Shown here: positions 7,950-38,475 of the stretch, piece by piece
Numbering within the stretch: the first letter of the stretch is position 1
How the letters are laid out: each line of letters opens with the position of its first letter
Assembly: GCA_947167765.1 (NCBI GenBank)
Contig: CAMVJI010000005.1
Location: 1 to 48,122, forward strand
Origin: an uncultured Butyrivibrio sp.
GTDB lineage: Bacteria > Bacillota > Clostridia > Lachnospirales > Lachnospiraceae
Length of the DNA: 48,122 bases
Direction: 5' to 3'
Program-made: the position numbers and the translations under genes
The notes under the pieces: model-generated
Seen by the model: the letters and a program-made list of their open reading frames with translations, nothing else
Database searches by the model: none
Told to the model about the DNA's origin: nothing

Positions 7950-8034
7950 CATATGTTCTGCAACTGGCTGACTTTAGAAAGTCCCTATAGCTTTGTGTCG
8001 CCGGATCACTCCGGTTTTACCCTCTATGTATTCT
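7950..8034 (-). promoter_or_regulatory. c-di-GMP-I (GEMM-I) riboswitch aptamer
   Basis: Read on the minus strand, the element shows GAGGGTAAAACC, then stem CCGGA closed by GNRA loop GTGA and TCCGG. This is followed by GACACAAAGCTATAGGGA (consensus GACGCAAAGC, one change), a second stem around ACTTTCTAAAGT, and the closing GCCAGTTGC. Order and spacing fit the GEMM-I fold with its tetraloop and tetraloop receptor. A terminator follows directly, so binding would switch transcription of the secreted protein gene. The base A in GACACAAAG differs from the common G and could alter affinity. Confidence 0.87.
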
Positions 8035-14077: not shown

Positions 14078-17000
14078 TTATTGATCGTCATGATCATCTC
14101 TCCTTAAGTACAAGTCAGGAAAGACTATAAGTAATTCTTTTTCATTATCCTTGCCTTTCCAAATGACTATATGACGTATTACCGCGTCGTAAACCTCAAA
14201 TCCTCTTCCTAACAATTCCTGAAGGTTTCCCTTTGCCTTCTTTGAAAGCATAGCAATTCCAGTGTTTTCATAAAATAAGATGCCATTATCCCAACGAAGG
14301 TGTGTTCCGCTCCTCAGCTTTGATATAATTCCCTGATAATGATCAAACCGACTTAATACAACCCCATCATAGGATAATTGCATAACAATACTGTTTGTTG
14401 ACGGATACATCTCAATATCAACATGTGATTCAACATAATCACTGTCAGTCACTTCAATGGCTTCATCATTTGTAAAAATGGTAAGAGTCTTTTTGGCTCT
14501 CGTCATTGCAACATAAAGCACCCGCAGATCCTGGGCAGACCATACATCCTTTTTCTCAAGAAGAATATATACATTATCAAATTCTTTACCCTTGGCTCTA
14601 TGCATAGTTGAAACAACAACTGCATTTTGGTTTTCTTCTTCGAAATCCTCCATTTTTGATTCAACCAAATACTCATATAGATCAGATAAGTATTTATCCG
14701 GATTCAGTAATTCAAATCTTCTGATGACAGAGCAAATAAAATCATGATCTTCGCTATTACCGAAAGAAGCATCTATAAATTCCTTACCGGAATCCCAGAT
14801 TTCATCTGAAATAATAGAATCTTCTGTGTTTTCAAAATGCTTCTTAATTTCATTGTAGAAACTTCTAATCCCATATAGATCAAAAAGTCTAAACCCATCA
14901 TTACTCTGAACAAGATGTGCCTGTACTCCATCTTTTAGAAGCTTACCAATTAGAAAGTACGTTCCACGATTTGTTGCTGTAAGAATGGCTTTAGTTCCAG
15001 AATAATGATCTCGCAACAACTGATCTACTAATGGAACTTCCATAAAACTATGGGTATGCTTGTAAATCTTTACTAGGCCCGGATCGGTATTCACAGCGAC
15101 AATAGGGGATACCTTCAACCTATTTGGAATCTTCTCTGCAAAAGAATTTGAGAACCTAACTATATTTTGCAGACTCCTATAGTTCTCCAAAAGCTCATAT
15201 TGATTAGCATTATGCTCTGTAATAATCTTTTGCATGTACTCCGAGCTGGAATTTCTAAACTCATATATATTCTGATCATCGTCTCCGACTGCTATTACTC
15301 GCATGTCTTCGTTATGTCTCATAAGCAGTTGCACAAGCTTGTACTGCTCTGCATCCATATCTTGAGCTTCATCAATAACCAAAACACTTTTAGTTATCTG
15401 GGATGTTTCAACCTCTCCAGACTCAATCAACGATATTGCCTCAGATATTACCGTGTCAGAATTATCCAAACTTCCAACTCTTCCCAGGATGTCAAAACAA
15501 AACGAATGAAATGTCTGAATTTTGACCATAAATCCAAGATTTCCAACCAGATTAACTAATCTCTCCTTAAATTCCATTGCAGCAGAACGTGAAAAAGTAA
15601 GCATCAAAAGCTGATCGCTTTTAACTCTTTCCAAAAGCAGGAGCGATGCCAACTTATGGACAAGTACTTTAGTTTTTCCGCTTCCCGGACCTGCCAAAAC
15701 AACTATATTAGCTGCACTATTGTCATCAATAATCTCTTTTTGACGCTTTGACAAACTTCCAAATATTCGCTCATAGGTATCTTTAGACATATTCTTGGTT
15801 ATTTCATTTAAATAACCTGGCTCAAACCACTTATCAAAGAACTGTTTCTCAGAAAGACCAAAGTAGTCCTTAAGTAGCTCCTTTCCTTTCTCCTCGCTAT
15901 CAAACATTACTTCCGCAAATTTCTTCATTGAGTGAATCATATGTTGTTTAGCGTGATAGTTCTTCTCAAGACTCCTGAAATCCTTCTTTTCAAATTTCCG
16001 CTTGCTATTCTTTTCTATTCTTTTCATCTGAAGGGCGTTGTAGCACACCAAAAAACCGCCCTCGATTTCTAACGCTTGGATCTTGGCCAAATATAAAATG
16101 GCATCCTGCACATCTTTAGTTGAGGCAATTATATTTTCGATGGCTAGTCTGTCGTCATTATACCTATTCTTAACGTCGATTACTGAGAAATCCACTTTCC
16201 CTTTTGTCTCATTATCAGCGTTTGAGCTCTTTAAATTGTCATATAGGTACTCCAAGATAAACCTTGCAATATTCGTCCGTAAATTAGACTTATCTTGTAG
16301 GTTCTTTTTACTTATCACAAAGTCAATATGTATCTTATTGTCGCCATGCTGGTTCTTTTTCTCCACATATCCAGTAAGACTCCAAAACATCAGCACAGTC
16401 TTTATAGACTTAACGTTAGATCCTTTAATGATTTTGGATACAGAATCATTTAATTCTTTATATGACACTTCTCCGGACTCTGGAATAACCTCAATCAGTG
16501 CGTCTTCAAGATCCTTAAAGAATTGCAATTGCTTTTTTGCCTCGCTCTTTCCTGATTGGGTAATATACGCAGATAGGTCCATGTCATCTGCGAGTATATT
16601 TGCATCTCGCATTTCATAAACAATTTCTATTATTTCTGATTTATCTGTTTTCAGATTATCCGCTATGTAATCCACTCTGTTTTCCGGATAATCATTACTG
16701 TTATCAGTATCTTTACAAGCAAGTAAATAACTAATAATTTCTTTTGCAATTCCCTTATGTTCTTCAGGAATTTTATCAGTTTCATCTATCTTGCGAGATG
16801 CATCTGCAATATTCTTAGCATTAATGCTGTCAGCATACACGTGAGGGGCATTATCCAATCTCTCTACAAATCCTGCCCCTTCTAACACCGAGACAGCTGT
16901 TTTAACTGCTGTTTCAATGCCATACCCATTGTCATTCCATCCAGCTTTTCTGGCCAATTCTATAGATGAAGCGCTAAATGCAGCCCATGACTTCTTGTAA

Positions 17001-18892: not shown

Positions 18893-18935
18893 AAGCCTAC
18901 CCTCCAAAAGGGAAGTGTCGGTAATATTTGTCCAA

Positions 18936-19902: not shown

Positions 19903-22392
19903 TCATGCATCAGCTGAATACTGTAGCAATCTAAAGGTACTTGCAGGTTTTTTTGCGAAATCGGAAATCTTGCATTTCTGAACAATCCGATTATTTCTGA
20001 TCGCCAAAATCTCACCACCTACAAAGCTATAGCAAGTATCTCCATGCTTAAAGCTGTAATCAGCTCTGCTCTCATCAATGTCAACATCCTTAGTTGCACG
20101 CTTGAGCTCTCGATAGAACCTATACTCTTCCTCAGATTTGATATTAAGCTCCGGTACCACATCACTATGCTGCAGCAAAAACATATTCGTGAAGCCTATA
20201 GCCATCCCCTGCTCAAGTGGCTTAATAGTCTCACCTGATTCATTAGTATCAGTGATATCTTTCCACTCTCGGACTGTAATCCTGTAGTATGGCTCATCGT
20301 CGTTGTTTCTTCCATGGCTAATCGGCACTTCTATTATTGATGATCTCTTTACTAGCTCAACACGAATAGCTTCGCCATAATACCTAATCTCACCCTTATC
20401 GCCAAACATATTGTTCGTCTGATACAAGGCAACGTAGTGAATTGGAAGCCTATCATCACTTACCATGCTCTTAGGAACATAATAGAATCTCTTCTGGTAA
20501 CAAGTTTCAAATTGTTCTGGTGACCTGAATGTTCCTATCAATACTTCTCTCTTATCCCAGTTAACCTTGGCAAGCTTTTCTTCTATACCTGCAGGAAGTG
20601 TTGCCCTTTCAAATGCGGATTCCTTAGAATCACTGATGAGGTCATCTAATAAGCTTCTCACAAGCTTGGTGGAGCCAGGCAAAAATGGAAGTCCGCCAAT
20701 ATTTACTGTTTCTATGCTCTTATAGAATCTATGATTTTTGTATTGTTCCTCGTCGTCATAAGGGAAAAGAATGTATGCACCAAACATAGTCTTTTCAAAC
20801 ATAAACTTGGATTCACGATTCTCATATACAATTGAATCCCTGTATCTATGCATAGTGTTGATATCGTCAACCTTTGGTCCTGGCTTATCATCAGGATAAA
20901 ACGGACTTGAAGGGTCTTTCTCTATGCGGTACTTAGCATCAAATACATACTTGTATGCTACATCCGTACCTCTTTTCTCCAATTCAAGCACATTGTCAGG
21001 TCTCTGATTGACGGTCTGTGTCTTTTGCTCTGAAGGATTATATACAAGTGTTATGTGCTCGCCGGTATTAGGATTGATAAATCTTGCTTCAGATCTGTGA
21101 CCTTTTACCAGCGTCACAGTTATTCCGTTATTATCGACTTTAACAATATCCGGAGAAACAAGCTTATATTCTTTCTTCAGTATGCTGAACAACTTGATGA
21201 AACACCAATACTCATAAAGAAGAGCCGTGTCCTTAACTGACATCTTAAATATATCTCCGTTAACAGAAAGGCTTCTGCTCAGCATGAGATAACACTTATA
21301 GAGCTCACTGTAGCCCGGAGCCATTCCAAACACAAGGGACATGCTCTTAGCAGCATGATACTCAGAAACATCCTGAAGGAACGATGAATGCATTACTCTC
21401 TTTACATCCCTCTTCATACGCTGTGCATCCTGGATAACTTTTTCTTCAGGCTCTCCGCCAGCTACATTCTTGGCGTACCTTGTGTATCTCTTAATGAACT
21501 CATCAAGTCTTTTTACTGTAGATTTCAGAATATACTTTACAAAGCGGTTCTCCTCTGTGTCATAGGTAAGCTGCTTCTTAGCTGTAAGGAGCCTCTCTGC
21601 AGCTACTACTCCATCAGTAATAACCATCCTATCCTGGCGCTTTCTTAGCCAGTTGATAGAAGTCTTATCAGTACTCTTTGCCTTGTAATATGGAACAACC
21701 TCATGCTCTGTAATCAGCTTGTGGTGTGGAACGCTGATAATCCTGTTTACTGCATTCATATAGTCATTAAAGATGACTGATAAAATCTGAAAATATACAG
21801 ATAGGACAGTGCTCTGCTTATCTCCGAGTTTGAATGTCTGATATGTCTTTTGCATAAAATCGATGGCCACTTCAGAAACCATTTCTGAAATATCATCGAT
21901 CATCTTTTGATAATCTTCTTTGTATGTGATCTTAGAGGGGAATACCTCTATTCGAATAGTAAGACATCTCACGCCATCTGCAGAGATTTCAAAGTCAGAA
22001 TAACCACAGGTATTCTCAAAATTGAGAACGCCTGATAGCAGAGTATAGTCGCCATCATAAGCGGAACCTACTCTGTCCTTTATAGAAGAGTTTTCATTCC
22101 AGAAAGAAAGCTGACTTCCATCATTGCTCTTTATAATGATCTCATAATCGGTCTGCTCAAAGAAAATTGGAGGAATTTCAAATTCATAATGAGCATAATC
22201 AAAATTCTCGCACTCAATATCCTCTTCTGTTGCTGCAATCTTAACCTCTTTAATATTCCTACCATCAAGCACAAGTGAAGAAGACCGGTTGGAAGTATCT
22301 CCCTGCCAGCTTCTTCTACTTTTGATAACGACATTCAGTTTTTCAGTGCTTATCTCTAATAACTTATCAGAGCCAGTAGGAAGTAAAGCCAT
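19903..22392 (-). CDS. DUF2357 protein with PD-(D/E)XK nuclease core (McrC-like)
   Basis: This 829-residue protein matches DUF2357-type partners of McrB-like ATPases. The N-terminal half is beta-rich, then helical, with SINWLRKRQDRMVI and ENRFVKYILKSTVKRLDEFI. A nuclease core near residue 480 has KYVFDAKYRIEKD, the D-x-K part of a PD-(D/E)XK site, followed by MHRYRD. The gene overlaps the MrcB-like ATPase by 26 bases, and AAGAGG directly precedes ATG. The expected role is the DNA-cutting subunit of a modification-dependent restriction complex. In known McrBC the nuclease partner is McrC at about 350 residues, so this one is much larger and probably carries its own DNA-contact or coupling domains. 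Confidence 0.75.
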   Translation of the reverse strand: MALLPTGSDKLLEISTEKLNVVIKSRRSWQGDTSNRSSSLVLDGRNIKEVKIAATEEDIECENFDYAHYEFEIPPIFFEQTDYEIIIKSNDGSQLSFWNENSSIKDRVGSAYDGDYTLLSGVLNFENTCGYSDFEISADGVRCLTIRIEVFPSKITYKEDYQKMIDDISEMVSEVAIDFMQKTYQTFKLGDKQSTVLSVYFQILSVIFNDYMNAVNRIISVPHHKLITEHEVVPYYKAKSTDKTSINWLRKRQDRMVITDGVVAAERLLTAKKQLTYDTEENRFVKYILKSTVKRLDEFIKRYTRYAKNVAGGEPEEKVIQDAQRMKRDVKRVMHSSFLQDVSEYHAAKSMSLVFGMAPGYSELYKCYLMLSRSLSVNGDIFKMSVKDTALLYEYWCFIKLFSILKKEYKLVSPDIVKVDNNGITVTLVKGHRSEARFINPNTGEHITLVYNPSEQKTQTVNQRPDNVLELEKRGTDVAYKYVFDAKYRIEKDPSSPFYPDDKPGPKVDDINTMHRYRDSIVYENRESKFMFEKTMFGAYILFPYDDEEQYKNHRFYKSIETVNIGGLPFLPGSTKLVRSLLDDLISDSKESAFERATLPAGIEEKLAKVNWDKREVLIGTFRSPEQFETCYQKRFYYVPKSMVSDDRLPIHYVALYQTNNMFGDKGEIRYYGEAIRVELVKRSSIIEVPISHGRNNDDEPYYRITVREWKDITDTNESGETIKPLEQGMAIGFTNMFLLQHSDVVPELNIKSEEEYRFYRELKRATKDVDIDESRADYSFKHGDTCYSFVGGEILAIRNNRIVQKCKISDFAKKPASTFRLLQYSADA

Positions 22393-24604
22393 CCTCTTCG
22401 AATCTCCTCATCATGTAGCATAGCTTCTGAGCTGAATTTTTATATTTGCATGACTTATTATTGATACAATCATCCATCTGCTTCCAGATATAGCTCTGGC
22501 TAAATCCAGAATAATCGCCGGCAAACATCTTGAACAAGTCACACATCATATTCTTGATGCCTTCGCTACTTCCTTGGATCCTCGGCAAAATCTTTTGCAT
22601 AATCTCATAGTCAAAAGCGGTATCGTAGTCTAGGAGCTTCGCAGCGTCATTGTTCAGCATGTAGAAAACAATTTCATCTCTTACTCTGTATCCAACATGC
22701 GCATTTGCCTGTTGCAACACTTTATTAATATTCTGCAGGTCAGCACTTACTCTTTTGGCAAGTTCCTGCTGCTCTGGCTTAACATCTGTTCCAAGAACAA
22801 GATACTGAGATTTGAAGAAATCATTACCCTTGTTCAGTGGAACTACCGCCTCTGCGCTTGATGAAAAGTTTGGTAAAAGATCCACATAAGAAAACTCAAT
22901 CGTATTTGCTCTATCAAGCACTTTCTTGCTGAATGGGAATGTGGTCTCATCCATGTTTACAGTACCTATAACATACAAGTTCTCGGGGATATAAAGATCT
23001 GGATAATTCTTCTCAGCAGCTTTATCCAATGTCAGTTTATATGTCTTAATCTCACCGTTAACATTTGTCCTTGTTTCGATAAGTGATAAGAAGTCGCTCA
23101 GGTAATACTCAACTCTGGAAAGATTCATTTCGTCCAAGCAAAGGAAATATGGATATTCTCTGTTCTCTTTGGCTTCCTTTACAAAATCAATAATAGCTCC
23201 AGGAATATAATTGCCATTAAGATCAGTATGTCCAAAAAGATCTGTTGAATCAGACCAATCAGGGCGAACTGAAACAAGCTTAAATCTGCCATTTCCGCCC
23301 GATTCCTTGGCATAAGCTCCAACAGCACCAGCAAAGAGTTTCACAAGGCGAGTCTTTCCTGTTCCACTGGTACCAGCAAGGATGACGAATGGCTTTGACT
23401 TCAAACTCAAATAGAAGTCTTCAATAAGTCCATCATTGTAGCTAAAGCCTTTAGCTGCTATGTACTTTTTGATTTGCTCTATATCGCCCTTAATAGACAA
23501 TGCATTTTCTCCATTAGTTCCATTTTCAACTTCAGTTGCTGTCTTTGGTTTAACACCAGCATATTCTCTGTAGATATCCATCATCTTGAATAAATCCTGT
23601 TGCAGCTCTGTCTCAGATGGTACGGCACCTCTTTTGTATTCCTTATAGAAGATGGTACCCTTCTGATACATTTCGCCTAAATCTGTAAGTCCTTGTCCAA
23701 GATCTATATCTTCATCTGTGTTAAATCCTCGGCTATCAATCCTTGCTGCAATTTCGGCAGCTCTCTCCCTCATGATCTTGATGGCCCCCAGCTTGCCATG
23801 AGTATTCTTGATATCAGTGCATCCCTGATTAAACGTAAGGTATAAGGATTCTCCAGTCTTTGAAAGCAGGTAAACAATGTAAACACCCTTCGTTGCTGTA
23901 GTTGTGATGCTGCGATCAAAGATACATATCCATGGGATTGTAGCCCAATTACCTTGCCCAACGCTGCCGGTTATCAGATAATTCTGCGGATCTACTAGGC
24001 CAGTATTGTAAATGGCATTAGGGATCTCAGACCTAACAAATGTACCGAAAGGACTTCCTGTAAAAGCTCCTTTCTTGGCATCCACATATCCATTTAAAAA
24101 CTTATCAATTACTTCTCTCAATTTGCCTTTAGCTCCGTTATCCATTGATGAATAGTACAATATCAGTTTCTGCTCAACTATGTCCAAAATCTTATCTATC
24201 TCAGCATTGGTAATTACTGCTGCTAATTCGGGAACCATTTGGAAACAGTCTTGTCCATCTTGCTTCTCAATTCTAAAGAATCCTTTATTTTGAATTACAT
24301 TGAAAGGATTTTTTAGGATAACATCGAGCACATCCTTTACAGTACTCTCCTCCGGACTTGCTATTGCCTTGCTGACATTTAAGTCAGGGACTTTCCCTTG
24401 ATGAAGTCTATTTATGTAATACTCCCTGAACAATGCAGCAATATGCTCTGTTGTAGTGGATTCTTCTCTTTTTAGACTCTCAAAATAAGACTTGTAGAAT
24501 ACAAGCTTATAAGATCTTTCATACCCTCCAAGACTATTAACTGGGCCAAGGTATTTGTAGAAATATGAGAGTATATCTGTATTAAAAGAATTATATGTAT
24601 CCAT
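22367..24604 (-). CDS. McrB-type AAA+ ATPase with MrcB N-terminal (DUF3578) domain
   Basis: The 745-residue protein has an N-terminal MrcB_N/DUF3578 domain (about 195-290: GQGNWATIPWICIFD then YIVYLLSKTGESLYLTFNQG), which in relatives is proposed to recognise modified DNA. An AAA+ motor follows with Walker A LAGTSGTGKTRLVKLFAG near 415, Walker B FLCLDEMNLSRVEYYLSDF near 490, sensor VIGTVNMDETTFPF near 545, and KVLDRANTIEF with the arginine finger. McrB relatives hydrolyse GTP or ATP to translocate DNA. It overlaps the DUF2357 gene by 26 bases, and its ATG lies 2 bases from the upstream helicase gene's stop. Together they form the core of a type IV-like restriction system. Confidence 0.85.
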   Translation of the reverse strand: MDTYNSFNTDILSYFYKYLGPVNSLGGYERSYKLVFYKSYFESLKREESTTTEHIAALFREYYINRLHQGKVPDLNVSKAIASPEESTVKDVLDVILKNPFNVIQNKGFFRIEKQDGQDCFQMVPELAAVITNAEIDKILDIVEQKLILYYSSMDNGAKGKLREVIDKFLNGYVDAKKGAFTGSPFGTFVRSEIPNAIYNTGLVDPQNYLITGSVGQGNWATIPWICIFDRSITTTATKGVYIVYLLSKTGESLYLTFNQGCTDIKNTHGKLGAIKIMRERAAEIAARIDSRGFNTDEDIDLGQGLTDLGEMYQKGTIFYKEYKRGAVPSETELQQDLFKMMDIYREYAGVKPKTATEVENGTNGENALSIKGDIEQIKKYIAAKGFSYNDGLIEDFYLSLKSKPFVILAGTSGTGKTRLVKLFAGAVGAYAKESGGNGRFKLVSVRPDWSDSTDLFGHTDLNGNYIPGAIIDFVKEAKENREYPYFLCLDEMNLSRVEYYLSDFLSLIETRTNVNGEIKTYKLTLDKAAEKNYPDLYIPENLYVIGTVNMDETTFPFSKKVLDRANTIEFSYVDLLPNFSSSAEAVVPLNKGNDFFKSQYLVLGTDVKPEQQELAKRVSADLQNINKVLQQANAHVGYRVRDEIVFYMLNNDAAKLLDYDTAFDYEIMQKILPRIQGSSEGIKNMMCDLFKMFAGDYSGFSQSYIWKQMDDCINNKSCKYKNSAQKLCYMMRRFEEDGFTSYWL

Positions 24605-24605
24605 T

Positions 24606-26516
24606 TTACTTCCTCTGCTTTTCAGCTAACTTCTGAGCATATGCCTGTAGCCTTTTCTGAGCATTATTAACGCGATCAATCTCAATGCGTAAATAATTCC
24701 TAAGATCAGGATCCATTACATATAAATAAAGCCCTTTCTGACCTCTAGTGAACAAAACCTTGTATGTATTACGGATAATACGATCCAAAATCATAGAATC
24801 CTCTGGTTTTGGCTTCCTTTGGTGAGGTCTTTTAAACTCTCCAGAGCCTTCTGGATGTCTTGTATAATCCGTTTCAACTCTGCCGTTACGGTAAACAAGA
24901 TCATCACCTATAATAAGTCCCACATATTCAAATTCCATTCCCTGAGAAGTATGGATGCATCCAACCTCATCTATGGACATAGGATCCACAGCAAAAGCTT
25001 TTGTCTTATTCCACTGTGCACTAAATCCATCCAGGACAATATCAATCTGAGTCTTATCATTCATGCTTATCCATGGAAAAACATCACCACTTAGCATTCT
25101 GCATGGATACTTGCACTCTGCATTTTTCTTCTTTACAGCCTCATACATTGTAGGTAAATCATCAAACATCCTGATCTCATAATCCATTATTTCAGTCATA
25201 GGTTGCTGAGGCTTGTTGTATAAGGTGTTTTCGACCCACTGTATATACTCATCAGAGCCATTACACCTGAACTGAGCTTTTAACACATACTTGTCATCCT
25301 GAATAACCGTTGCTCCCTCTGCGGCAGCTGCAGCCTTGATATTCTCTATTGTTCCAAAATCCTTAATGTCTATTTGCTGTGTCTCATCAATGAAGAAAAC
25401 AGACACTTTTGACGCATGTATTATTTCCTGAATCTGATTATTACCATAGAACATGAATGAAACTTTTGTTTTCTCCGTAAGTCTATGGGCTTCGTCAACG
25501 ATAAGGCAGTCAAACTGCTTATTTCCATTGAAAGCTTCTTTATGAAAATCTCCTGATCCTCTAAATAAAGTCCTTAATATCTTATAATCTGGGATATTAC
25601 GAGTAAGCATCTTAAAATATGATTCTTTGATATAACTACTCTTCGCTACGTAAAAGGCGGTTCTACCCTTCTTATGCAATTCTCCCAAAAGGTGAAGGGC
25701 AATAAGCGACTTTCCAGTTCCAGCCCCTCCTTGAACAATAATAACCTTCCTATCATTTGTCTTAAGCGCCTGGTCTATCTCACGCTTTATATTCGAAAAT
25801 GCAATACGCTGCTGTCCTATAAGCTCAATATTGTCATTTCCATTTAAGGAGTCTGCCAAGCAATCAATAAGAAACTTAGAAGGCTTAATGCGTCCATTAC
25901 TAAGCTCATAAAGCAAATTATCCTCAGGAGCCTTAGTTATCTTAGATCCAATATAATTCGCAAACTTTACCCACTCATCATTTATAAATGCCGGTGCTTT
26001 ATCTAATCCTTCAGAGTATACATCATGCTTTATTTCACCTTCATACTCTGTCTTATAATCATGTAGAAAGCAGCATGTGAAAATATTTATTGGATTATTT
26101 TCAACATACTCATTAAAGTTAGATATTGTAGTTCCATATGAGAATGCCTGCCATGAAGGATGAACACGTTCTTCTGATCCTAAGAGTACAACATCGCTCA
26201 TATCGGTATGCTTTACCTGTTCCCACTGTTTGAGCTCTACTATGACAACATTTCTATTATCCTGGTCATCTCTTCCGGCAATAATGAAATCGATACGTTT
26301 ATTGGTTAATGGCACATTAAGCTCAAGACCAACCTGCGCTCCTGCAGGAATGCTCACATTAGCCAATGCATTCTTCACAGATGCCAAAGAAATCCTGAAA
26401 GACTTCTTCTCACTCTCAGAAAAGTCTCTACAAAGAGCTTTCTGTATAGCATCTACAATTTGTCCCCTATTAATATCAATGCAAAACTCATCATATGATT
26501 TGTTGTAAGCAAGCAT
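24606..26516 (-). CDS. PD-(D/E)XK nuclease plus SF1 helicase (DUF2075 type)
   Basis: A 636-residue protein. The N-terminal ~200 residues hold a nuclease-like core, RIDFIIAGRDD then NVVIVELKQWEQ near 90-110, where D and E-x-K fit PD-(D/E)XK. A DUF2075-type SF1 ATPase follows: VQGGAGTGKSLIALHLL near 262, CLIVDEAHRLTEK near 340, FFIDETQQID, CIHTSQGMEFEYVGLIIGDD near 520 and YKVLFTRGQKGLYLYV near 590. It is the first gene of the operon, with AGGAGG four bases before ATG. Pairing with MrcB and DUF2357 suggests a three-component DNA restriction machine. The DUF2075 name is from memory of the family; the motifs are seen directly. Confidence 0.82.
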   Translation of the reverse strand: MLAYNKSYDEFCIDINRGQIVDAIQKALCRDFSESEKKSFRISLASVKNALANVSIPAGAQVGLELNVPLTNKRIDFIIAGRDDQDNRNVVIVELKQWEQVKHTDMSDVVLLGSEERVHPSWQAFSYGTTISNFNEYVENNPINIFTCCFLHDYKTEYEGEIKHDVYSEGLDKAPAFINDEWVKFANYIGSKITKAPEDNLLYELSNGRIKPSKFLIDCLADSLNGNDNIELIGQQRIAFSNIKREIDQALKTNDRKVIIVQGGAGTGKSLIALHLLGELHKKGRTAFYVAKSSYIKESYFKMLTRNIPDYKILRTLFRGSGDFHKEAFNGNKQFDCLIVDEAHRLTEKTKVSFMFYGNNQIQEIIHASKVSVFFIDETQQIDIKDFGTIENIKAAAAAEGATVIQDDKYVLKAQFRCNGSDEYIQWVENTLYNKPQQPMTEIMDYEIRMFDDLPTMYEAVKKKNAECKYPCRMLSGDVFPWISMNDKTQIDIVLDGFSAQWNKTKAFAVDPMSIDEVGCIHTSQGMEFEYVGLIIGDDLVYRNGRVETDYTRHPEGSGEFKRPHQRKPKPEDSMILDRIIRNTYKVLFTRGQKGLYLYVMDPDLRNYLRIEIDRVNNAQKRLQAYAQKLAEKQRK

Positions 26517-27762: not shown

Positions 27763-28881
27763 CTACTTGTAGTATTTATCTTTCATATTTTCAAACTCAT
27801 CTGGTGTTACAATATATAAATCCCCTTTTGTGCGTGTAAGTGCCACATATAATTTATTCACGGTTACCGGTTTTAGCGTTGAAACAGAAAAAGAGCTTTC
27901 TAAAAGGTTTTTAGTTGGACCATTCAAAATAACGCATGCAGATTCATATGTATCCCCCTTTGAATAGGACCAATTTACTGCCCGAAATGAATAGCGAGAA
28001 GCATTTTCATATACAAGTTTTACAATACTATTATCATCCAATATCTCTCGTATATTTGATGGTCTTACCACACGTCCCGAATTTATCCCTACCGATTGAA
28101 TCTGTATTCCTAGCTTATCGTAAATAAAAGAACATATTTCCTCAGAACAACGTCTTGATCGAATCAATGTTGTTTCATCAACGTCAAATTTCTTTCCCTG
28201 TAGTTCTTCGACAAAATCTTCATAGCTAATTTCAGTCCCAGCCTTCTTAAATGGCTTACCTGAATTATTCTGACCTGAAACAGAATGTTGATGGTAATCT
28301 CCTACCAACACTATATTTGTAAGATATTTAGATAATCTTACTATAAGCTCATAATCATACTCTCTAAAGTCTTGAAATTCATCTATAAATACATTATCAA
28401 AGAAGAGATTAAGTTTCTCCGCCGCAATACGAGCAAGAGATTTACGCCCTTGTTTTACATACATTGCTAATTCAGATAAAGTTTCACAATAATACTGTTT
28501 CCTTTCATCCATGTAGTGCTGAAGGAATTCTTTCTTTTTATATTTTCTATTAGGTACATCTCGGCCATTAACTTTAATTCTCTGCTTAGGTGGTTTTTTT
28601 AACGTTATACTCGTCTCACCATACTTATAATCTTCTCCAAAAAAATCAAATATTGAAGATTCATACGGGCGAATGAGCATATGGTAAACAAATGCATCAA
28701 ACGTCATAATCCTGGTCATCTCAGGAATTTCACCATATGCTTTTATCAATTCACTTTGTATATTCTTAATATTTGCATGCGTAAAGGCAACTATTAGATT
28801 CCTTTTATCTGGCTGTATTTCATGACAAATATGGTAGGTCTTCCCAGCACCTGCAACCGCAAGTATTACTCGTTTAGCCAT
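27763..28881 (-). CDS. Compact UvrD-like SF1 helicase (GajB-like)
   Basis: The 372 residues contain an early Walker A AVAGAGKTYH (8-17), IVAFTHANIKNIQSEL (motif Ia), VFIDEFQDFREYDYEL near 168 (motif II), LVGDYHQ near 197 (motif III), and a terminal TVNKLYVALTRTKGDLYIVT (motif VI). The usual 1B/2B domains of full-size UvrD are reduced, making it shorter than typical GajB (about 490 residues). It overlaps the OLD nuclease gene by 16 bases, so translation is coupled. In Gabija, GajB senses DNA ends and works with GajA; class 2 OLD proteins are also paired with UvrD-type helicases. Assignment to Gabija itself is probable, not certain. Confidence 0.82.
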   Translation of the reverse strand: MAKRVILAVAGAGKTYHICHEIQPDKRNLIVAFTHANIKNIQSELIKAYGEIPEMTRIMTFDAFVYHMLIRPYESSIFDFFGEDYKYGETSITLKKPPKQRIKVNGRDVPNRKYKKKEFLQHYMDERKQYYCETLSELAMYVKQGRKSLARIAAEKLNLFFDNVFIDEFQDFREYDYELIVRLSKYLTNIVLVGDYHQHSVSGQNNSGKPFKKAGTEISYEDFVEELQGKKFDVDETTLIRSRRCSEEICSFIYDKLGIQIQSVGINSGRVVRPSNIREILDDNSIVKLVYENASRYSFRAVNWSYSKGDTYESACVILNGPTKNLLESSFSVSTLKPVTVNKLYVALTRTKGDLYIVTPDEFENMKDKYYK

Positions 28882-30443
28882 TCGATTGCATCCTCCACAT
28901 ATACAGGAATATTGAAATCTTCCTCAGAAATAAGCATCTGGTATGCTGTTTCCACCTTATTAGCAAGCATCTTTCCCAACACCTGCCCATAATTATTTCC
29001 ATGGAAAAGATATTGTGCACCTTCTTGAATCTGAATCATTTCATCAAGTTTTTCCTGATTACAGTTATATACGCAAGCCTCCCATGTCCAATCATCCATT
29101 GTAGATCCCATAAAAACATGCTGTTTCTCATTTAGCAGATTAAATGCCCCCGCTTCATCAATTTTATTTTGGTCATGATCATTATCTGTTATTACAGCTA
29201 TCTTTTTATCGGTTTCCTCTGCTATCTCCAAATATCTCCTATAAGAAATTCCATTGCATGATATTATTGAAACACCATCATTTTCGACAGTCCTACCGGT
29301 TTTCTTTTCATAGAACTTCGGCAACAACAAATATTCTGTGGCGCCTTCTACAAGTATTACCTTTTTTGAAAGCAAAAGCTGTAAAAACTCATTATCATCT
29401 GCCTTTTCAAAAAAAGCAGATGTTTGAGAATCAACATTTTTTAATGATAAATAGTGATTCTCTGCAATCCAAATAACATTTCCAAGATTAAGTCTGCTAG
29501 CAATCATGTTGCTATGCGTAGTGAGAATAATCTGGGAATCTTGTTCATGATCCAATATTTGTTGAAGCATTTGCTTTAAGTTTGTAAAACACAAATGATT
29601 TTCAGGTTCCTCTATCAAAATAGTGTCAAGATTATCCTCTCGATTAAGTGCTATTTGCGTTTTTACTAAACTTTCCATCCCGCTTCCCTTGTTTTCAAGC
29701 GGAATAGAGTTTTCATATACTGACAGAACGCTTTCTAGTACAACCTTTTTATTATCTATCCCAAAGCGTCTTCTATCATCAATATCCGGAAGACTCACAT
29801 CTTCAAACGATGTATTCAATTTCTCTCTGAACGCGTTCTTAGCTTTAAGTTTTGTATCATTACTATAAAGATTTGAAAAAAGCGCTCTATTAAAATAGTT
29901 AAAAGCAGAAGACTTTGACGTCTCTGATGTATCAATGAATAGATTCTTTATTGGTCTCTTAGCCACTTTGTATGGCAGATTTGCATAAGTCTGCCATGTC
30001 AATGAATAATACTCAAAGGGTATTTTCCCATCATTAATCGAATCAGCAAGTTCATCAGAAAAATCTTCATCGAATTTACATTCAAACCTAATTCCATATT
30101 TTTCTTCATCTCGATTACCGTACTCATGATTTGGTCCGTAAAAATCAATAAACCTTGGTGTATTATCTAACTGTAAATCGATTTCAATCTTTATTTGGGG
30201 CAAAGTCGCTATACTAGGACTATCTTGAAAAGATCTAACATTTTCTAAATTAAATAAATCCTGCAAGACAGATTTATCTGCATTCCAATACTGCTGGTTT
30301 AATACTATTCTAATAGCTTCAAGTATTGTACTTTTGCCAGCTTCATTTTCACCCACCAATATACTCAAGCGCTCATTGAACTCTATTTCGAAATGTTGAA
30401 AACGCTTTAAACCGTTAATATATAATCTCTTTACATATCCCAT
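28866..30443 (-). CDS. OLD-family ATPase/Toprim nuclease (GajA-like)
   Basis: A 525-residue protein with an SMC-like ABC ATPase and a Toprim nuclease. Walker A LVGENEAGKSTILEAI lies near 30-45, the signature/Walker B region near 270 has ILIEEPENHLCF, and the switch is LTTHSNMI. The Toprim part starts at VILVEGATEYLLLPKFYE near 364 (catalytic Glu) and has VITDNDHDQN near 418 (D-x-D-x-D). GajA of Gabija is a sequence-specific nickase held inactive by nucleotides and freed on phage-induced depletion. Order and overlap with the UvrD gene match gajA-gajB. Start: GGAGG six bases before ATG. It lies right after a SIR2-domain fragment. Confidence 0.88.
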   Translation of the reverse strand: MGYVKRLYINGLKRFQHFEIEFNERLSILVGENEAGKSTILEAIRIVLNQQYWNADKSVLQDLFNLENVRSFQDSPSIATLPQIKIEIDLQLDNTPRFIDFYGPNHEYGNRDEEKYGIRFECKFDEDFSDELADSINDGKIPFEYYSLTWQTYANLPYKVAKRPIKNLFIDTSETSKSSAFNYFNRALFSNLYSNDTKLKAKNAFREKLNTSFEDVSLPDIDDRRRFGIDNKKVVLESVLSVYENSIPLENKGSGMESLVKTQIALNREDNLDTILIEEPENHLCFTNLKQMLQQILDHEQDSQIILTTHSNMIASRLNLGNVIWIAENHYLSLKNVDSQTSAFFEKADDNEFLQLLLSKKVILVEGATEYLLLPKFYEKKTGRTVENDGVSIISCNGISYRRYLEIAEETDKKIAVITDNDHDQNKIDEAGAFNLLNEKQHVFMGSTMDDWTWEACVYNCNQEKLDEMIQIQEGAQYLFHGNNYGQVLGKMLANKVETAYQMLISEEDFNIPVYVEDAIEWLNE

Positions 30444-32925: not shown

Positions 32926-33541
32926 TTAATCTAGTACTGATGCTTGACCATTCATAAGCATTGGAAGAATGCCTTCCCTAGTACTTTTTAGGGATGAATT
33001 TTGGTCATTATTTTTTAGTATTGCTGAACGTATAGAATGAGCAAGTTTTTGATAGCTATTCAGTAATTCTGTTGGAGGAAGAACAATAAAAAGCATACTT
33101 AAATTGGTCTCACTTAATGAAGCACGAGTAGATGCCATGCACGAATTATGGAGGTACTGATATACAGCATCATTTTCAAAATAAGACCTGATATATTCCT
33201 GACAACATGCCCTATCTACATTAATTTTACCTAGTGCAACATTAAATGCCCCAGAAATACCATAACGAACAGCTCCGGCATCACCAATTTATCCATTAAA
33301 ATATCATAGCGATCTACAATGCTAAGACTTTTTTTGAATGGGATGTACGTAATATGGTCGTCGGAATCATAATCCCTATTTTGAATAAAGCGAACATACG
33401 AAAAGAGCCAATAAAAATATTGGTATCTTCATCATATTGTCCCTCAGTGTCTTTTAACGACCTATATGTATATCCAAGTCGTGTGAAATGCACTAACGCA
33501 GGAATCTTTACTCTGGAATTTTCATTATGAATTGTTGCCAT
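32926..33541 (-). pseudogene. Type I restriction scar: hsdR start joined to hsdS end
   Basis: Starting at ATG 33541 behind GTGGAGGTGCCGAT, the first ~43 residues (NSRVKIPALVHFTRLGYTYR, YDEDTNIF) are an HsdR N-terminus. Near 33412 the sequence switches, in another frame, to the last third of an HsdS specificity subunit: SYVRFIQNRDYDSDDHITYI, SLSIVDRYDILMDKL. A further frame change near 33285 leads to GDAGAVRYGISGAFNVALGK, IRSYFENDAVYQYLHNS, and finally LHSI-like helices ending STREGILPMLMNGQASVLD. Three frames are needed, so neither product works. The junction shows that a deletion removed most of hsdR, any hsdM between, and the first two thirds of hsdS. Confidence 0.78.
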
Positions 33542-34023: not shown

Positions 34024-35373
34024 TTATTTTCCTTCTAACGTTTTCTTTATCTTGGCCATATGCCTCTTGGTATCCTTGTTAATAGGATCATTTACAAATA
34101 TATTTGTTGCCCGATCAACATAATCCAAAAAATTAGCACGATCATTTTCAGTCACACGCATTCCTCTAGCGCGCTTATAGCATCTACTACCCTTGTATGA
34201 ATATAACTTATACAAGTTCCTCCTTCCTGCCTTGGTCTTCTTACGAGTCATTCCACCATTTGATATAACGCCATTTGCTTTTCTATACATTTTATGATAA
34301 TACTTCGATATCGTCTTTGATCTGATACTGACTATTTCCCCATCAAAAGAAAAGCCTAAAAAGTTTATTATTCTCTTATTACTTCTTAGCGAAAGATTTG
34401 TAATAATGCCGCCTTCCTTTTGATAAGTCTGTGTTTTATGGTCCTCAAGAACAACCTTAGCTTTTTCCAATATTCTTTTTATACTATCCACATGATCAGA
34501 ATAGTTCTTAAAATGAGTTCCAGGTATTACAACCATGAAGTCATCACTATATCGCATGTAGAAACCGTCTAGTCCTTTGCAGTATTCCAATATCTCTTTA
34601 TCAATCTCAAGCATATACACATTTGCTAACACTGCACTAATGGGTGAACCCTGTGGAACTCCGCATGGTCCATTGTGAATGATGCCATCTTTTCCTTTTG
34701 ACAAGGCTTCTAACTCAGCTTTTGACATCACGGGCTTATTGTTAGAATTTAGCTCCTTTATCCCTTTTCTTCCTTTGTCCAAGCCTCTTAACTCAAGTAT
34801 TTTTTCGATATCAACATACGAATACTTGGTCACAGCTTTGAACACATTGAAATAATCTTTACTTAGATTCTGTACACCAAGAAGCGCCTTTAACTGTTTT
34901 TTTAGATATACATGATCTAATTTATCGAAGAAATCCTTAAAGTCACCTATTATCACAAGGCAATCTTGTTGGTCTCTGATAAACGAAAACGCTTCATAGG
35001 CAAAGTTAATATTATTTTTCCCCAAATTGCTTCTATAAGCAACTGAAACGCTATTCAAACCATTCTCAAGGACTCTTTTGTTATAGTGCTCATTAATAAG
35101 ATATGCATAATACCTGAATATCCAGCTATCCAAGTGTGCTGCGTACTTGATATTTCTTACTTTAGGAGCGCCATTTCTCATAGTCCCATTTTTATTCTCA
35201 AGCCTTCTTGTTTTCATAGTGTAATGAATAAATGGGTAAAAGGCATATCTCCCAACATAGTCAGGATCTGTAATTTTGTTAAAACATGAATCCAACGATA
35301 CTGGATAGTCAAAGTGTGCATAATGTGTTATTTTTTTCTTTTTCCATTTCTCCCGGAAACCTATCTCTTCCAT
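34024..35373 (-). CDS. Standalone reverse transcriptase of the antiviral (DRT/UG) type
   Basis: The 449-residue protein from ATG 35373 (GGAGG four bases upstream) has the RT fingers/palm. IIGDFKDFFDKLDH near 146 holds the first catalytic Asp, GPCGVPQGSPISAVLANVYM lies near 237, and MRYSDDFMVVI near 274 has YSDD in place of the group II YADD. FLGFSFDG follows. The N-terminal region (THYAHFDYPVSL, RYAFYPFIHYTMKTRR, RNIKYAAHLDSWIFRYYAYL) recalls the unknown-group RTs of phage defence, closest in my memory to DRT2/UG2. No maturase/HNH domain or group II intron RNA is seen, so it is not an intron RT. In DRT2 the RT copies an upstream non-coding RNA; the leader here fits such an RNA. The exact class is uncertain. 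Confidence 0.83.
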   Translation of the reverse strand: MEEIGFREKWKKKKITHYAHFDYPVSLDSCFNKITDPDYVGRYAFYPFIHYTMKTRRLENKNGTMRNGAPKVRNIKYAAHLDSWIFRYYAYLINEHYNKRVLENGLNSVSVAYRSNLGKNNINFAYEAFSFIRDQQDCLVIIGDFKDFFDKLDHVYLKKQLKALLGVQNLSKDYFNVFKAVTKYSYVDIEKILELRGLDKGRKGIKELNSNNKPVMSKAELEALSKGKDGIIHNGPCGVPQGSPISAVLANVYMLEIDKEILEYCKGLDGFYMRYSDDFMVVIPGTHFKNYSDHVDSIKRILEKAKVVLEDHKTQTYQKEGGIITNLSLRSNKRIINFLGFSFDGEIVSIRSKTISKYYHKMYRKANGVISNGGMTRKKTKAGRRNLYKLYSYKGSRCYKRARGMRVTENDRANFLDYVDRATNIFVNDPINKDTKRHMAKIKKTLEGK

Positions 35374-35545
35374 AATTCCTCCAAAATAGAGCAATACCCG
35401 CTGGTGCGGCGGCAGTATGCCAAATTCACAGCGGGTAATGTTTCTTAACTTCACCAATTCACTTTACCAAGTATCATCAGTGAACTGCCTATTAAATTCT
35501 TAAGTGATAATTATATTATAATAATTACCAGAAAGGATTATATCG
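35374..35545 (-). ncRNA. Structured leader upstream of the reverse transcriptase (candidate RT-associated ncRNA)
   Basis: Reading towards the RT gene, hairpin TTCACT/AGTGAA (within 35458-35486) is followed by a strong hairpin of perfect arms ACCCGCTG (35396-35403) and CAGCGGGT (35429-35436). The latter encloses a smaller GGCA/TGCC hairpin (35411-35421). The second ends 23 bases before the RT ATG. AT-rich -10-like sequences (TATAAT-type) lie at about 35510-35545 on both strands. Structured RNA directly before a defence RT often is its template or cofactor. The extent of the RNA is not defined, and it might start further up, towards 35780. Confidence 0.5.
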
Positions 35546-35547
35546 CA

Positions 35548-35688
35548 ATGATACTCATTATCATAATTGCGCTGGCGTTACTTGTAGTAACTCCGGACAA
35601 CAGATACGATAGTTGGTGTGATATCACACACAAACTGATTAGCATCATATTGACAATAATCTTCGCCTCTAACACCGGTGCACGTTAG
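35548..35688 (+). CDS. Possible 46-residue hydrophobic protein opposite the RT leader
   Basis: A plus-strand frame ATG 35548 to TAG 35688 encodes MILIIIIALALLVVTPDNRY, then DSWCDITHKLISIILTIIFA and SNTGAR, with two hydrophobic segments. AGAAAGGA lies 10 bases upstream. A TATAAT-like box precedes it near 35515, and a plus-strand terminator follows at 35746. That makes a complete small unit divergent from the RT. It might be a membrane toxin-like peptide, or the complement of the RT's RNA template. It is the only gene-like frame in this gap, but short ORFs arise by chance. Confidence 0.4.
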   Translation: MILIIIIALALLVVTPDNRYDSWCDITHKLISIILTIIFASNTGAR

Positions 35689-35745
35689 AGTAAGATCATG
35701 ATAACACATCATAATCTATCAAGCCAACTTATTTCACGTTTTTAG

Positions 35746-35774
35746 CCACATTTCAAATACAATATGTGGTTTTT
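35746..35774 (+). terminator. Terminator downstream of the small plus-strand ORF
   Basis: Plus-strand hairpin CCACAT/ATGTGG (35746-35751 and 35764-35769) runs straight into TTTTT. The stem is only 6 bp, so it is moderate. It lies 7 bases before the end of the convergent RlaP-like gene. Confidence 0.5.
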
Positions 35775-35781
35775 GACAGTA

Positions 35782-36540
35782 TTATACAATCCCCCTAAAC
35801 AGCTCATTAAGTGCTGTCCAGTCATGATTATGATCATCCGTAAGGTTATCTGCTATTTCTTTCTGCCTTGTCACTTCAGTTTCAATGAACCCTTTGATCA
35901 CCGGTAGCTGAGGATTCTCTTCTTTCTCAGTTGTCCTTTTCTTAATTTCAAGAAGTTCGTCGATGGCGCTTCTAAGCTCTAATGGCAGATCCATTTTAAG
36001 CAACTCATCGAAAAGAACTGGAGGTGCTACGTGGTTTTCCTCAATGTACATTGCAGCGAGCAGCGGTCTTAACGCATAGAAATACTTTTTATACCTGACA
36101 GTGTCTCCCATAAGATAATCATGGAGAGTTCCGTTGGCTGTTCCATAATAGTGGTAAACAGCTGATTTTTCCGAAAAATACTGTTTTGACACTGCAGCTA
36201 TTTTCTTCCACTCCAGTGTTGTGCGGTAGACTATCGGTGAACCACTCCACTCAAACAATGTGGCATTTCCTCTGGCAAATTGCTTAAGAGCCTTCTTAAG
36301 ATCCCAGCCATTTATATCAAGGACTTCATCAAGTTGCCATTCGATTACATCTCTTGGTTCATCAAGCCTTAGATAATCATCCCTCTTCCTGACATATACA
36401 AATCTGACATCATAATCACTATCAGGTGATGCAAAGCCCCAGGCCCTGCTTCCAGACTCTACTGCGTGAAGGATCTTCACATTTTCTTTTTCTTCAATTT
36501 CACTTAACTTTTCATCTATCTCTTTTAAAATATCTCTCAT
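35782..36540 (-). CDS. RlaP-type nucleotidyltransferase (first of two)
   Basis: The 252-residue protein belongs to the RlaP/YcgL-like nucleotidyltransferase group (polymerase beta fold). AVESGSRAWGFASPDSDYDV near residue 27-46 gives the G-S-x-A-x-G and D-x-D metal site, followed by RFVYVRKRDDYL and VIEWQLDEVLDINGWDLKKA. Helices around AVYHYYGTANGTLHDYL and VRYKKYFYALRPLLAAMYI match the family C-terminus. RlaP proteins accompany RNA repair systems, and their substrate is unknown. The ATG overlaps the stop of the next gene upstream (4 bases), so the pair is coupled. Both copies keep their catalytic aspartates. Confidence 0.85.
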   Translation of the reverse strand: MRDILKEIDEKLSEIEEKENVKILHAVESGSRAWGFASPDSDYDVRFVYVRKRDDYLRLDEPRDVIEWQLDEVLDINGWDLKKALKQFARGNATLFEWSGSPIVYRTTLEWKKIAAVSKQYFSEKSAVYHYYGTANGTLHDYLMGDTVRYKKYFYALRPLLAAMYIEENHVAPPVLFDELLKMDLPLELRSAIDELLEIKKRTTEKEENPQLPVIKGFIETEVTRQKEIADNLTDDHNHDWTALNELFRGIV

Positions 36541-37559
36541 TCAAGTTCTCCAGTCACTACATATCTGTTGATGCGCTCTACAAATTTCTCAACCTGTTCC
36601 ATATCTGGATTATCAGGCAGAGTGGTCTTTCCTGCAGCCTCATCAAGTTTCTTTTCATACTCATCAAGCATCTCAAAGAACGCTGTAGAAAATGTTCCGT
36701 CTTTTTCCATGTAGTCGCCTCTGCGAATAGCGAGAAGCAGATCCAGATCATTGGCTCTGTGTGTTATGATCTCGCCTTTTTCCAGAATATCAATCGCCAT
36801 CATAAAGAGCCTTATCAGGTGCATGGCATGCTTATTAAGGTGATTGTCGTCTTTCTTTTTGTTGCGTTTACCAATCTTGTCATAGTCACGGACAACGCTT
36901 CTCATCACACTCCAGACATCCTCATAATCGCGGAGCGGGAAGTGTTTGTAATTGGCATCCACAAATATCTCAGTATCAAGTTCCGGATTCTCAGCTTTAT
37001 CAATGTACAGCTTCAGACCACCATCAGTTTTTCCGTAGTATCTTCTGTTCACATCATCAAGAGCATGCATTACTGATTTCAGGATGTGCTTCTCCCTGTC
37101 ACTCTGGGCAAGGGTATCTCTTGCTATTGCATTCTGAAGTCTACGCAGCTGAGAGTCTGCATATCCCCCGAAGCTCTTGATAGCTCTTTTCGATAAAAAG
37201 AGATGTGTATTATCTATCAGTTCCTGGCCCAGTTCAGATTTGATAAGATATTGATTCTCATCAAGGCCAAGCATTTCACAGGTGTTCGGATTGCACTCCA
37301 AAAGAAGCTTTACCAATTTGTTGAAGCCATAGATCACAGTGTCAGTCTTATCATCTTCGTACTGTTCAAACTCCGTCAGTCCCAAAAGGTCTGATGGCAT
37401 CTGAAGCGTGACACCTCTGAAATCAATATCGCTGTTGTCATTATTGGTGCCATAGGCATAGCTTCCGCCAAGGCCAAGGAGCATTATTCTGTTTCCAAGT
37501 CTTTCGTTGGCTCTGAGGAAGTCGTATTCCTCTGAATTCATAAGTTTTATAAAATCCAT
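36537..37559 (-). CDS. RlaP-type nucleotidyltransferase (second of two, longer)
   Basis: A longer relative (340 residues from ATG 37559) with RIMLLGLGGSYAYGTNNDNS then DIDFRGV, giving GGS-x10-D-I-D, the nucleotidyltransferase metal site near residue 26-45. TDTVIYGFNKLVKLLLECNP and TCEMLGLDENQYL follow, typical of the group. The last 100 residues (DLDLLLAIRRGDYMEKDG) are variable. A TTG at 37592 could extend it by 11 residues; neither start has a strong site, and the gene overlaps or abuts the one before it. Two different members in tandem suggest a two-subunit or two-substrate enzyme. Function inferred as RNA or small-molecule nucleotidylation. Confidence 0.82.
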   Translation of the reverse strand: MDFIKLMNSEEYDFLRANERLGNRIMLLGLGGSYAYGTNNDNSDIDFRGVTLQMPSDLLGLTEFEQYEDDKTDTVIYGFNKLVKLLLECNPNTCEMLGLDENQYLIKSELGQELIDNTHLFLSKRAIKSFGGYADSQLRRLQNAIARDTLAQSDREKHILKSVMHALDDVNRRYYGKTDGGLKLYIDKAENPELDTEIFVDANYKHFPLRDYEDVWSVMRSVVRDYDKIGKRNKKKDDNHLNKHAMHLIRLFMMAIDILEKGEIITHRANDLDLLLAIRRGDYMEKDGTFSTAFFEMLDEYEKKLDEAAGKTTLPDNPDMEQVEKFVERINRYVVTGELE

Positions 37560-37581
37560 ATCAATAACGCATCTTTCCTTG

Positions 37582-38475
37582 TTAATAGCCAATCTCTCTG
37601 CAGAACAGATCTACAGATTGTACTCTGGTTTCATTAGGACGATCACTGCTCTTCATTTGAATCTGTCCGTCTGCCCTGATTTCCAAAGTAATAGTTGTTC
37701 CATTAGACTTTTTTACAGTCATCTTCTCACCTGTAGGCGTTCCAGCCACATCTCCTTTATTTGAGTATTCCTCAGAAAAAAGGCTATGCCAACGACTCAT
37801 GAATCTATCAATGATCTTTCTATACATTACAAAATCCTTTGGGTGAATCAGGAATATATATGAGCGCTGGGTTCCTTTATGGAATGTAAGGATTACCGGT
37901 TTTGCATCCGTAATCCTGTCAAACATCGCATTCTTATAATCATCCCACTGAGTATATGTTCGCCTACCTTTATGGCAGTAGTAAACAACATTGTAACCTT
38001 CGTTGTAATATCGTTTTATCTCATTGGGAAAGATATACTTATCTGCATTCTTGGCGAGATAATCGTTGTTGTCCATTAGTCCGTTGTCCGGGTCCATAAA
38101 GATCAACTCTGAACCTGCCAGTGCGTCCATGCTTTTATTGAACCATGTAATTCTTCGATGTTCTTTCTCCGGCGGATTTCCCTGAATTTTCAGAAGATCA
38201 TCATAGTATAATGCATTGTCAATAATCCCAGAGTCCTGAACAGCCTGAACTGATCTATTTCCATTATCTACAAGTTTCTTTAAAGCATCAAAAACCACAG
38301 AATCATATCTTCGCATATCCTCTTTTTCCAGATAACTGATATGTTTGCCATCATTTGAACCATCATCTTCTGTGAGATACCAGTTTATTCCCACATTAAC
38401 TCCGGCCTCAGAAAAGGCTCAAAGCAATGAGTATTTACTGTAATCACCAACATCACCTACATACTGATTTTTCAT
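37582..38475 (-). pseudogene. Gene with in-frame TGA at codon 19; hypothetical 297-residue protein
   Basis: From ATG 38473-38475, preceded by AGGGGGCGCT, the frame reads MKNQYVGDVGDYSKYSLL, stop TGA (38419-38421), then AFSEAGVNVGINWYLTEDDG and on to 37582. The N-terminus with YVGD-GDY and the segment INWYLTEDDGSNDGKHISYL fit one continuous family protein, so CGA or another codon has become TGA. Other segments are ELIFMDPDNGL, YNVVYYCHKGRRTY and RSYIFLIHPKDF. A shorter product could start at GTG in VNVGINW. It belongs to the operon with the phosphoesterase and RlaP genes. It is a broken gene or a base-call error; function unknown. Confidence 0.65.

Follow-up and report, generated by a model that had tools for sequence, protein, structure and literature searches.

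A DRT2 reverse transcriptase locus of an uncultured Butyrivibrio sp. appears to assemble a hidden gene at a template repeat different from the described one

The window, by which we mean the whole stretch of DNA analysed, comprises 48,122 nucleotides of a contig from an uncultured Butyrivibrio sp., a bacterium of rumen type (CAMVJI010000005.1, assembly GCA_947167765.1). The locus of interest consists of a minus-strand reverse transcriptase (RT) gene and the 408-base leader preceding it (35374–35781), and its features are listed in table 1. The encoded RT is a member of the Drt2 family: PADLOC assigns it Drt2 scores of 455 and 314 bits, with the next family, Drt9, at 74 bits and thus not the best RT model, and its sequence matches the RT of the solved DRT2 structure 9c0i (KpnDRT2) with an E-value of 2.7e-59 at 31% identity. 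The score against the NCBIfam Drt2 model NF041746 (368.6 bits) narrowly misses the equivalog cut-off of 390 bits, which is the border of that model and no functional criterion. RVT_1 is the sole Pfam domain found, in keeping with the initial annotation, made from the bare sequence, which had described a YSDD RT devoid of a maturase or HNH domain. That annotation had named a retron or group II affiliation as contrary to its reading, an outcome that did not occur, the best retron RT model giving 50 bits against a cut-off of 235 and the group II RT/maturase model 72 of 300 bits. We took the ATG at 35373 (minus strand) as the start codon; an alternative TTG at 35457 would extend the protein by 28 residues.

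Table 1. Coordinates of the features of the DRT2 locus in the window.
Feature	Position	Strand	Basis
DRT2 (UG2) reverse transcriptase, 449 aa, YSDD active site, RT domain only	34024..35373	-	profile and structure-sequence matches
Predicted DRT2 ncRNA, ~295 nt, predicted ends	35395..35691	-	homologous leaders; fold z -3.8
Terminal hairpin of the 3' domain, TACCCGCTG...CAGCGGGTA	35395..35437	-	stem search, fold
Pseudoknot strand 2, ACTGCC, within the loop of the 8-9 bp hairpin	35411..35416	-	stem search
Pseudoknot strand 1, GGCAGT	35484..35489	-	stem search; relatives covary
Putative jump motif copy 2 (RNA UUA), directly 3' of the template	35501..35503	-	junction scan
Predicted cDNA repeat / neo unit, 156 nt = 52 codons, with a single frame free of stops through the junction	35504..35659	+	junction scan
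-10 box TATAAT of the predicted neo promoter, unit start; 17 bp from TTGACA only once joined	35517..35522	+	junction scan
SD-like AGAAAGGA of neo	35530..35537	+	sequence scan
46-codon hydrophobic ORF: predicted neo from its ATG (35548) to a genomic TAG past the template end	35548..35688	+	ORF list, junction scan
-35 box TTGACA of the predicted neo promoter, unit end	35650..35655	+	junction scan
Putative template-end site, counterpart of jump motif copy 2	35657..35659	-	junction scan
5' handle hairpin CTCTAAC...GTTAGAG	35667..35690	-	comparison with L011
Candidate ncRNA promoter: TTGGCT, 18 nt, TATCAT, preceding TG; 9/12 matches	35698..35727	-	weak

The DRT2 locus lies in what its predicted gene content marks as a defence island. 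Downstream of the RT region are GajA-like and GajB-like genes (Gabija defence, by PADLOC; 27763–30443), and further on a protein with a Schlafen group 3 helicase domain (24606–26516) and a McrBC-like pair (19903–24604; an MrcB_N/AAA_5 protein followed by a DUF2357 and PD-(D/E)XK protein). A 1609-residue double-helicase fusion with DEAD/Helicase_C and UvrD parts is encoded at 14078–18907. Immediately upstream of the leader, at 35782–37592, stand two neighbouring genes of the RlaP family of RNA repair nucleotidyltransferases. Judging by their motifs, the neighbouring genes at 1104–2895 are presumably sirtuin-like and macrodomain-like; PADLOC finds no match for them. Beside a DUF3800 gene, the interval 32926–33541 holds only short minus-strand ORFs and is possibly a decayed gene, and Rfam identifies a c-di-GMP-I riboswitch on the minus strand at 7956–8031.

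Relatives of the RT are rare, being detected in two of the 79 genomes from the genus, eight of 397 at family level, 12 of 392 at order level and four of 391 at class level, with the genome's own copy counted each time. In a tree of 30 RTs the protein falls within a weakly supported group of 21 (81/64) made up mostly of sequences from its own family, order, class or phylum and from phage or viral contigs, with the RT of 9c0i as the exception; its sister is L022 (support 98/94), and several deeper forks are left open. A search of genome contigs yielded two loci, one of which (L002) starts within the RT, where its contig ends, and so has no leader. A search of viral contigs with the single RT protein retrieved no relative; with an alignment it retrieved 15 loci, six of which (L027–L031 and L036) were used and nine, weak or partial, were dropped. 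Further family searches added zero loci. With L012 (C-terminal half only), L018 and L019 (contig-end fragments) and L046 (record begins beside the gene) excluded, the set comprises 31 leaders, the window included, among which are some close kin (such as L013 and L014), so that they are not independent. The only close leader found is that of L011, the second Butyrivibrio leader (genome G416). The RT of this sister Butyrivibrio is split across two contigs (L011 and L012) and carries a TAA in its C-terminal part, attributable to an insertion, decay or an assembly break.

The leader contains no minus-strand gene, as the initial annotation had maintained for some 400 bases upstream of the RT, the two minus-strand ORFs of 44–45 codons in it being unsupported. 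No Rfam family matches it at gathering thresholds. The predicted RNA (35395–35694) folds more stably than 200 of 200 shuffled sequences (z = -3.8), and the leader of L011 aligns well with it from the 5' hairpin through the RT, the ends being conserved and the middle more variable. The 5' hairpin itself, CTCTGAC/GTCAGAG in L011 as against CTCTAAC/GTTAGAG in the window, differs by one compensatory pair (A-U to G-C). It is this hairpin of the minus-strand RNA, at 35667–35690, that had been taken for a terminator belonging to the plus-strand ORF, a claim that we find unsupported, as no terminator-like site was found in 35340–35900. Sites resembling the candidate promoter of the ncRNA number five in the region, compared with 2.3 in shuffled sequences.

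Just before the RT start, perfect hairpin arms had been described, and they are exact: ACCCGCTG (35429–35436) pairs with CAGCGGGT (35396–35403) over 8 bp, or 9 bp counting the flanking T-A. A smaller hairpin said to lie inside them is indeed drawn by the folding program, but its ACTGCC more likely pairs with GGCAGT as a pseudoknot, a helix that covaries in the relatives. In eight relatives aligned with the window left aside, this helix has seven pairs, with 100% of cells paired and five double-sided changes. Of 500 shuffles compared with the full 26-pair structure, none equals it in four of the five measures used, and 24 do so in the fifth. The covariation count rests on eight of the 12 relatives first aligned, L008, L016, L017 and L021 having been dropped for arms badly placed by MAFFT; in several leaders (including L005, L008, L017 and L020) the automated search for the stem and pseudoknot put the best pair elsewhere, and the arms were there set by eye. 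A covariance model of the eight relatives, built without the window, matches four of the 22 loci not used in building it (L014, L008, L017 and, with an E-value of 0.36, L011) and gives a stray match on L007 (E = 0.15). With default filters it finds nothing at E ≤ 1 in the window; with filters off and all 48 kb searched, the best of seven matches is at the right place (E = 0.73), the E-value falling to 0.007 when the leader alone is searched. The stem and pseudoknot of the window are equalled by 24 of 500 shuffles (those of L011 by six of 500). The covariance test proposed by the initial annotation is thus positive for the leader family but weak for the window itself, and we therefore regard the window RNA as a divergent member of the family. 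Its overall architecture, with a 5' handle, a template and a pseudoknotted 3' domain, looks like that of a DRT2 RNA.

In the available portions of two studies of DRT2 (PMC12039810, PMC11100668), the template of the associated RNA is copied into tandem repeats, the junction between repeats builds a promoter with 17-bp spacing, and the resulting gene, neo, is encoded antisense to the ncRNA, the length of each repeat being a multiple of three. The antisense strand is here that of the plus-strand hydrophobic ORF of 46 codons whose existence at 35548–35688 we corroborate, and the proposals of the initial annotation that the leader may serve as a template RNA of the DRT2 type and that the ORF may be an image of the template strand agree with this and with the PADLOC and 9c0i matches. 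In the genome, the plus-strand elements stand in the order TATAAT, SD-like AGAAAGGA, ATG and TTGACA, with 127 bases separating TATAAT from TTGACA, and the scanned leader of the window holds just one such perfect pair of boxes. When they are set 17 bp apart, the junction, predicted to read TTGACAATAAGTGAT, falls in a repeat that the two ends of the template share, TAA on the cDNA and UUA on the RNA. Exactly one plus-strand frame is free of stops through the resulting 156-nt unit, so the reading stays open across its own repeat junction, as the initial annotation had proposed to check. Because this frame is the one holding the ATG at 35548, the 46-codon ORF would be neo truncated by a genomic stop outside the template. 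The same design applied to L011 gives TTAA (RNA UUAA, a 4-nt repeat) and a unit of 153 nt with one open frame. The predicted Neo is hydrophobic (GRAVY 1.01), and GRAVY is positive in all 22 units with an accepted junction. The two Butyrivibrio units share 28 of 51 aligned residues, and their codons differ by 18, 16 and 12 changes at positions 1, 2 and 3, respectively, with no excess at the third position; selection on the amino acids of Neo is not demonstrated by this test.

The arrangement recurs well beyond these two leaders. In the strictest form of the rule (both boxes perfect, spacing 17, unit of 90–190 nt, stop-free concatemer), with 9,300 dinucleotide shuffles as the control, a perfect box pair is present in 22 of the 31 leaders versus 1.3% of shuffles (4/31 on the other strand), and boxes together with a stop-free concatemer in 20 of 31 versus 0.04% (other strand 0/31); L042 and L044 are the two perfect-box leaders not open at this spacing. 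Allowing one mismatch in the boxes raises the count to 23/31, compared with 2.1% of shuffles and 1/31 on the other strand. The units of the 22 leaders with an accepted junction span 111 to 168 nt, and four of them (those of L003, L005, L006 and L008) also have a stop-free frame on their opposite strand. The rule was formed by eye on the window and 21 loci and then applied to nine leaders fetched later. Under the bounds first set, with one mismatch tolerated and no less than 3 nt of repeat required, four of these (L027, L031, L036 and L044) pass, compared with 0.6% of shuffles. Widening the bounds to 60–230 nt, which was done after the misses had been seen, adds L042 (87 nt, 8-nt repeat). This form, with at most one mismatch and a repeat of at least 3 nt, is satisfied by 23 of 31 leaders versus 1.6% of shuffles, the misses being L006, L008, L015, L026, L028, L029, L030 and L045; L006 qualifies if two mismatches are allowed, and L008 if the repeat may be as short as 2 nt. 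When the partial loci L005 and L011 are added to the 21-RT group of the window, 19 of these 23 leaders pass, all except L006, L008, L015 and L045. Among nine distant plasmid homologues (L047–L055) the rule holds strictly in one (L051) and fails in eight, and we therefore take it as a rule of the window's group and not of all DRT2 systems. L053 has the same 129-nt unit as L051 with two box mismatches, and L050 an open unit of 144 nt at spacing 16.

The repeat at the template ends differs between lineages. It is UUA(A) in the two Butyrivibrio leaders and AUUG (cDNA CAAT) in L004, L005, L006, L007, L013, L014 and L022, and has two to eight bases in the others. Across the 22 accepted leaders, the two ends of the same leader share 4.3 nt on average (at least 3 nt in 21 of 22) as opposed to 2.5 nt for ends taken from different genomes, a comparison favouring own matches somewhat because, where a leader had several box pairs, the open-frame pair was taken, or the one with the longest repeat among open ones. 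In a permutation test with 15 representatives chosen from the 22, the total for own ends was reached in none of 100,000 permutations. The template ends of the Klebsiella DRT2 carry ACA, according to the available portions of the same two studies. ACA is not the matched motif in the window, where no TGT follows TTGACA in plus-strand 35656–35688; it is a trait of a clade and not the definition of the DRT2 family. The closer match of own ends fits what re-pairing of the cDNA end would predict and suggests that ACA is one lineage's version of the motif. Among open-licence papers we found nothing on a jump motif other than ACA or on DRT2 in Butyrivibrio.

We consider it very probable that the locus is a DRT2 anti-phage system making Neo via concatemeric cDNA. 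The basis in our own analysis is the RT family, the anatomy of the RNA in relatives, and the promoter, frame and repeat features with their recurrence; cDNA synthesis, the phage trigger, the second strand, Neo toxicity and defence are ascribed to it by analogy with the published Klebsiella system. The RT would bind the RNA transcribed from the leader via the 5' handle and the pseudoknotted 3' domain and, upon phage infection, would copy the template from its 3' side towards the handle. The cDNA end TAA could then anneal again to the second UUA, immediately 3' of the template, so that copying restarts and tandem 156-bp repeats are produced, each junction setting TTGACA and TATAAT 17 bp apart, followed by the SD and ATG. 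Transcription and translation of the double-stranded repeat DNA would give a hydrophobic Neo with 52 aa per repeat, which should arrest the infected cell.

Most, though not all, of this confidence extends to UUA as the exact jump site. The same mechanism might instead use AAG, present in the RNA beside the handle (GCGAAG) and again in CUUAAG, with a unit of 162 nt (159 in L011), a promoter TTGACA-18-TATATT or TATTAT, and the junction TTGACAATAATCTTAAGTGAT. The cDNA repeat would then be TCTT (4 nt) in the window and CTT (3 nt) in L011, and both units are multiples of three and open; this junction, the first one we considered, nevertheless needs an imperfect -10 box and 18 bp, whereas the UUA junction provides perfect boxes at 17 bp, a design open in 20 of the 22 perfect-box leaders. 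We demoted AAG on these grounds and deem it unlikely.

That the plus-strand ORF is an ordinary genomic gene for a small membrane protein, unrelated to the RT, is suggested by its ATG, SD-like site and hydrophobic stretch, and three plasmid records annotate ORFs antisense to drt2 leaders as small hypothetical proteins (L051 653–787, L053 659–787 and L055 653–805). The TTGACA nevertheless lies inside the ORF, downstream of its start, and is misplaced for a genomic -35 box; the frame is open also before the ATG and through the predicted junction; and the same arrangement recurs in relatives of quite different sequence. The annotated ORFs of L051 and L053, moreover, overlap the predicted neo unit, that of L051 starting inside the unit and ending past the template end, as a fragment of neo would. 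An independent gene is hence very improbable. We give still less credence to a template of the DRT9 or DRT10 type, from which a homopolymer or a very short repeat, but no gene, would be made. DRT2, DRT9 and DRT10 are indeed related RTs that each have an RNA partner (available portions of PMC12483538, PMC12632851 and PMC12489045), but the Drt9 score is far lower, and the relatives repeatedly show a long template with matching ends, promoter parts and a frame that is kept.

The DRT2 reading with a UUA jump can be set against several known systems. Like KpnDRT2, the locus encodes an RT-only protein and an upstream ncRNA with a 5' handle and a pseudoknot (280 nt there, about 295 predicted here), and it shares, as predictions, an antisense neo, a junction promoter at 17 bp, a repeat that is a multiple of three and a hydrophobic Neo. 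It is unlike KpnDRT2 in its distant RT, in the jump motif (putatively UUA versus ACA) and in the unit of 156 nt versus 120 nt, where close orthologues of KpnDRT2 have units of 111, 117 and 129 nt (available portion of PMC12039810). DRT9 (poly-dA) and DRT10 (short tandem repeats) likewise belong to the class 2 UG RTs, have an RNA partner and produce repetitive cDNA, yet in the accessible parts of their descriptions the product is not described as protein-coding. With telomerase, an analogy drawn by Wilkinson et al. (PMC12039810, as far as its available text goes), the system would have in common that repeats are added by annealing the end of the product to another copy of a short motif in the template, while telomerase has a much shorter template, a product that is no gene and an RT of a different lineage.

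For divergent DRT2 clades, the accessible text of the 2024 preprint by Tang et al. (PMC11100668) states that the ncRNA is predictable and annotation of Neo 'more challenging', and raises alternative mechanisms; whether these clades make Neo or use another mechanism was left open there. The group of the window is possibly the same, differing from that description in that a predicted Neo can be read by the same mechanism once the requirement for ACA is dropped. Our analysis suggests that the locus and its relatives make Neo in the same way but with a jump motif particular to the lineage, which would explain simply why Neo was hard to annotate in divergent DRT2s. The system thus appears to be an already known one, DRT2, with a short copying-guide sequence different from that described. 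As a broader proposition, which we hold to be moderately probable, template jumping may be independent of ACA as such, with lineage-specific repeats of about 3–8 nt whose two copies at the template ends co-evolve in the manner of a telomerase template and its alignment region, and with Neo made throughout the Bacillota clade, in which it had appeared to be absent. If this is true, the hidden gene can be read from raw DNA by matching ends, a 17-bp box spacing and a length divisible by three. It is also suggested that, among the small 'hypothetical proteins' annotated on the strand opposite to drt2 leaders, some represent pieces of genes complete only after reverse transcription.

Two of the deviating loci deserve mention. 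L045 has a 7-nt end repeat and an implied unit that is not a multiple of three, which may reflect decay, a sequence error or another mode. L015, which has a DRT2 RT, has no matching leader within 560 bases upstream of the match, and a stretch in that interval resembles, by eye, one that precedes the match in L008 and L017.
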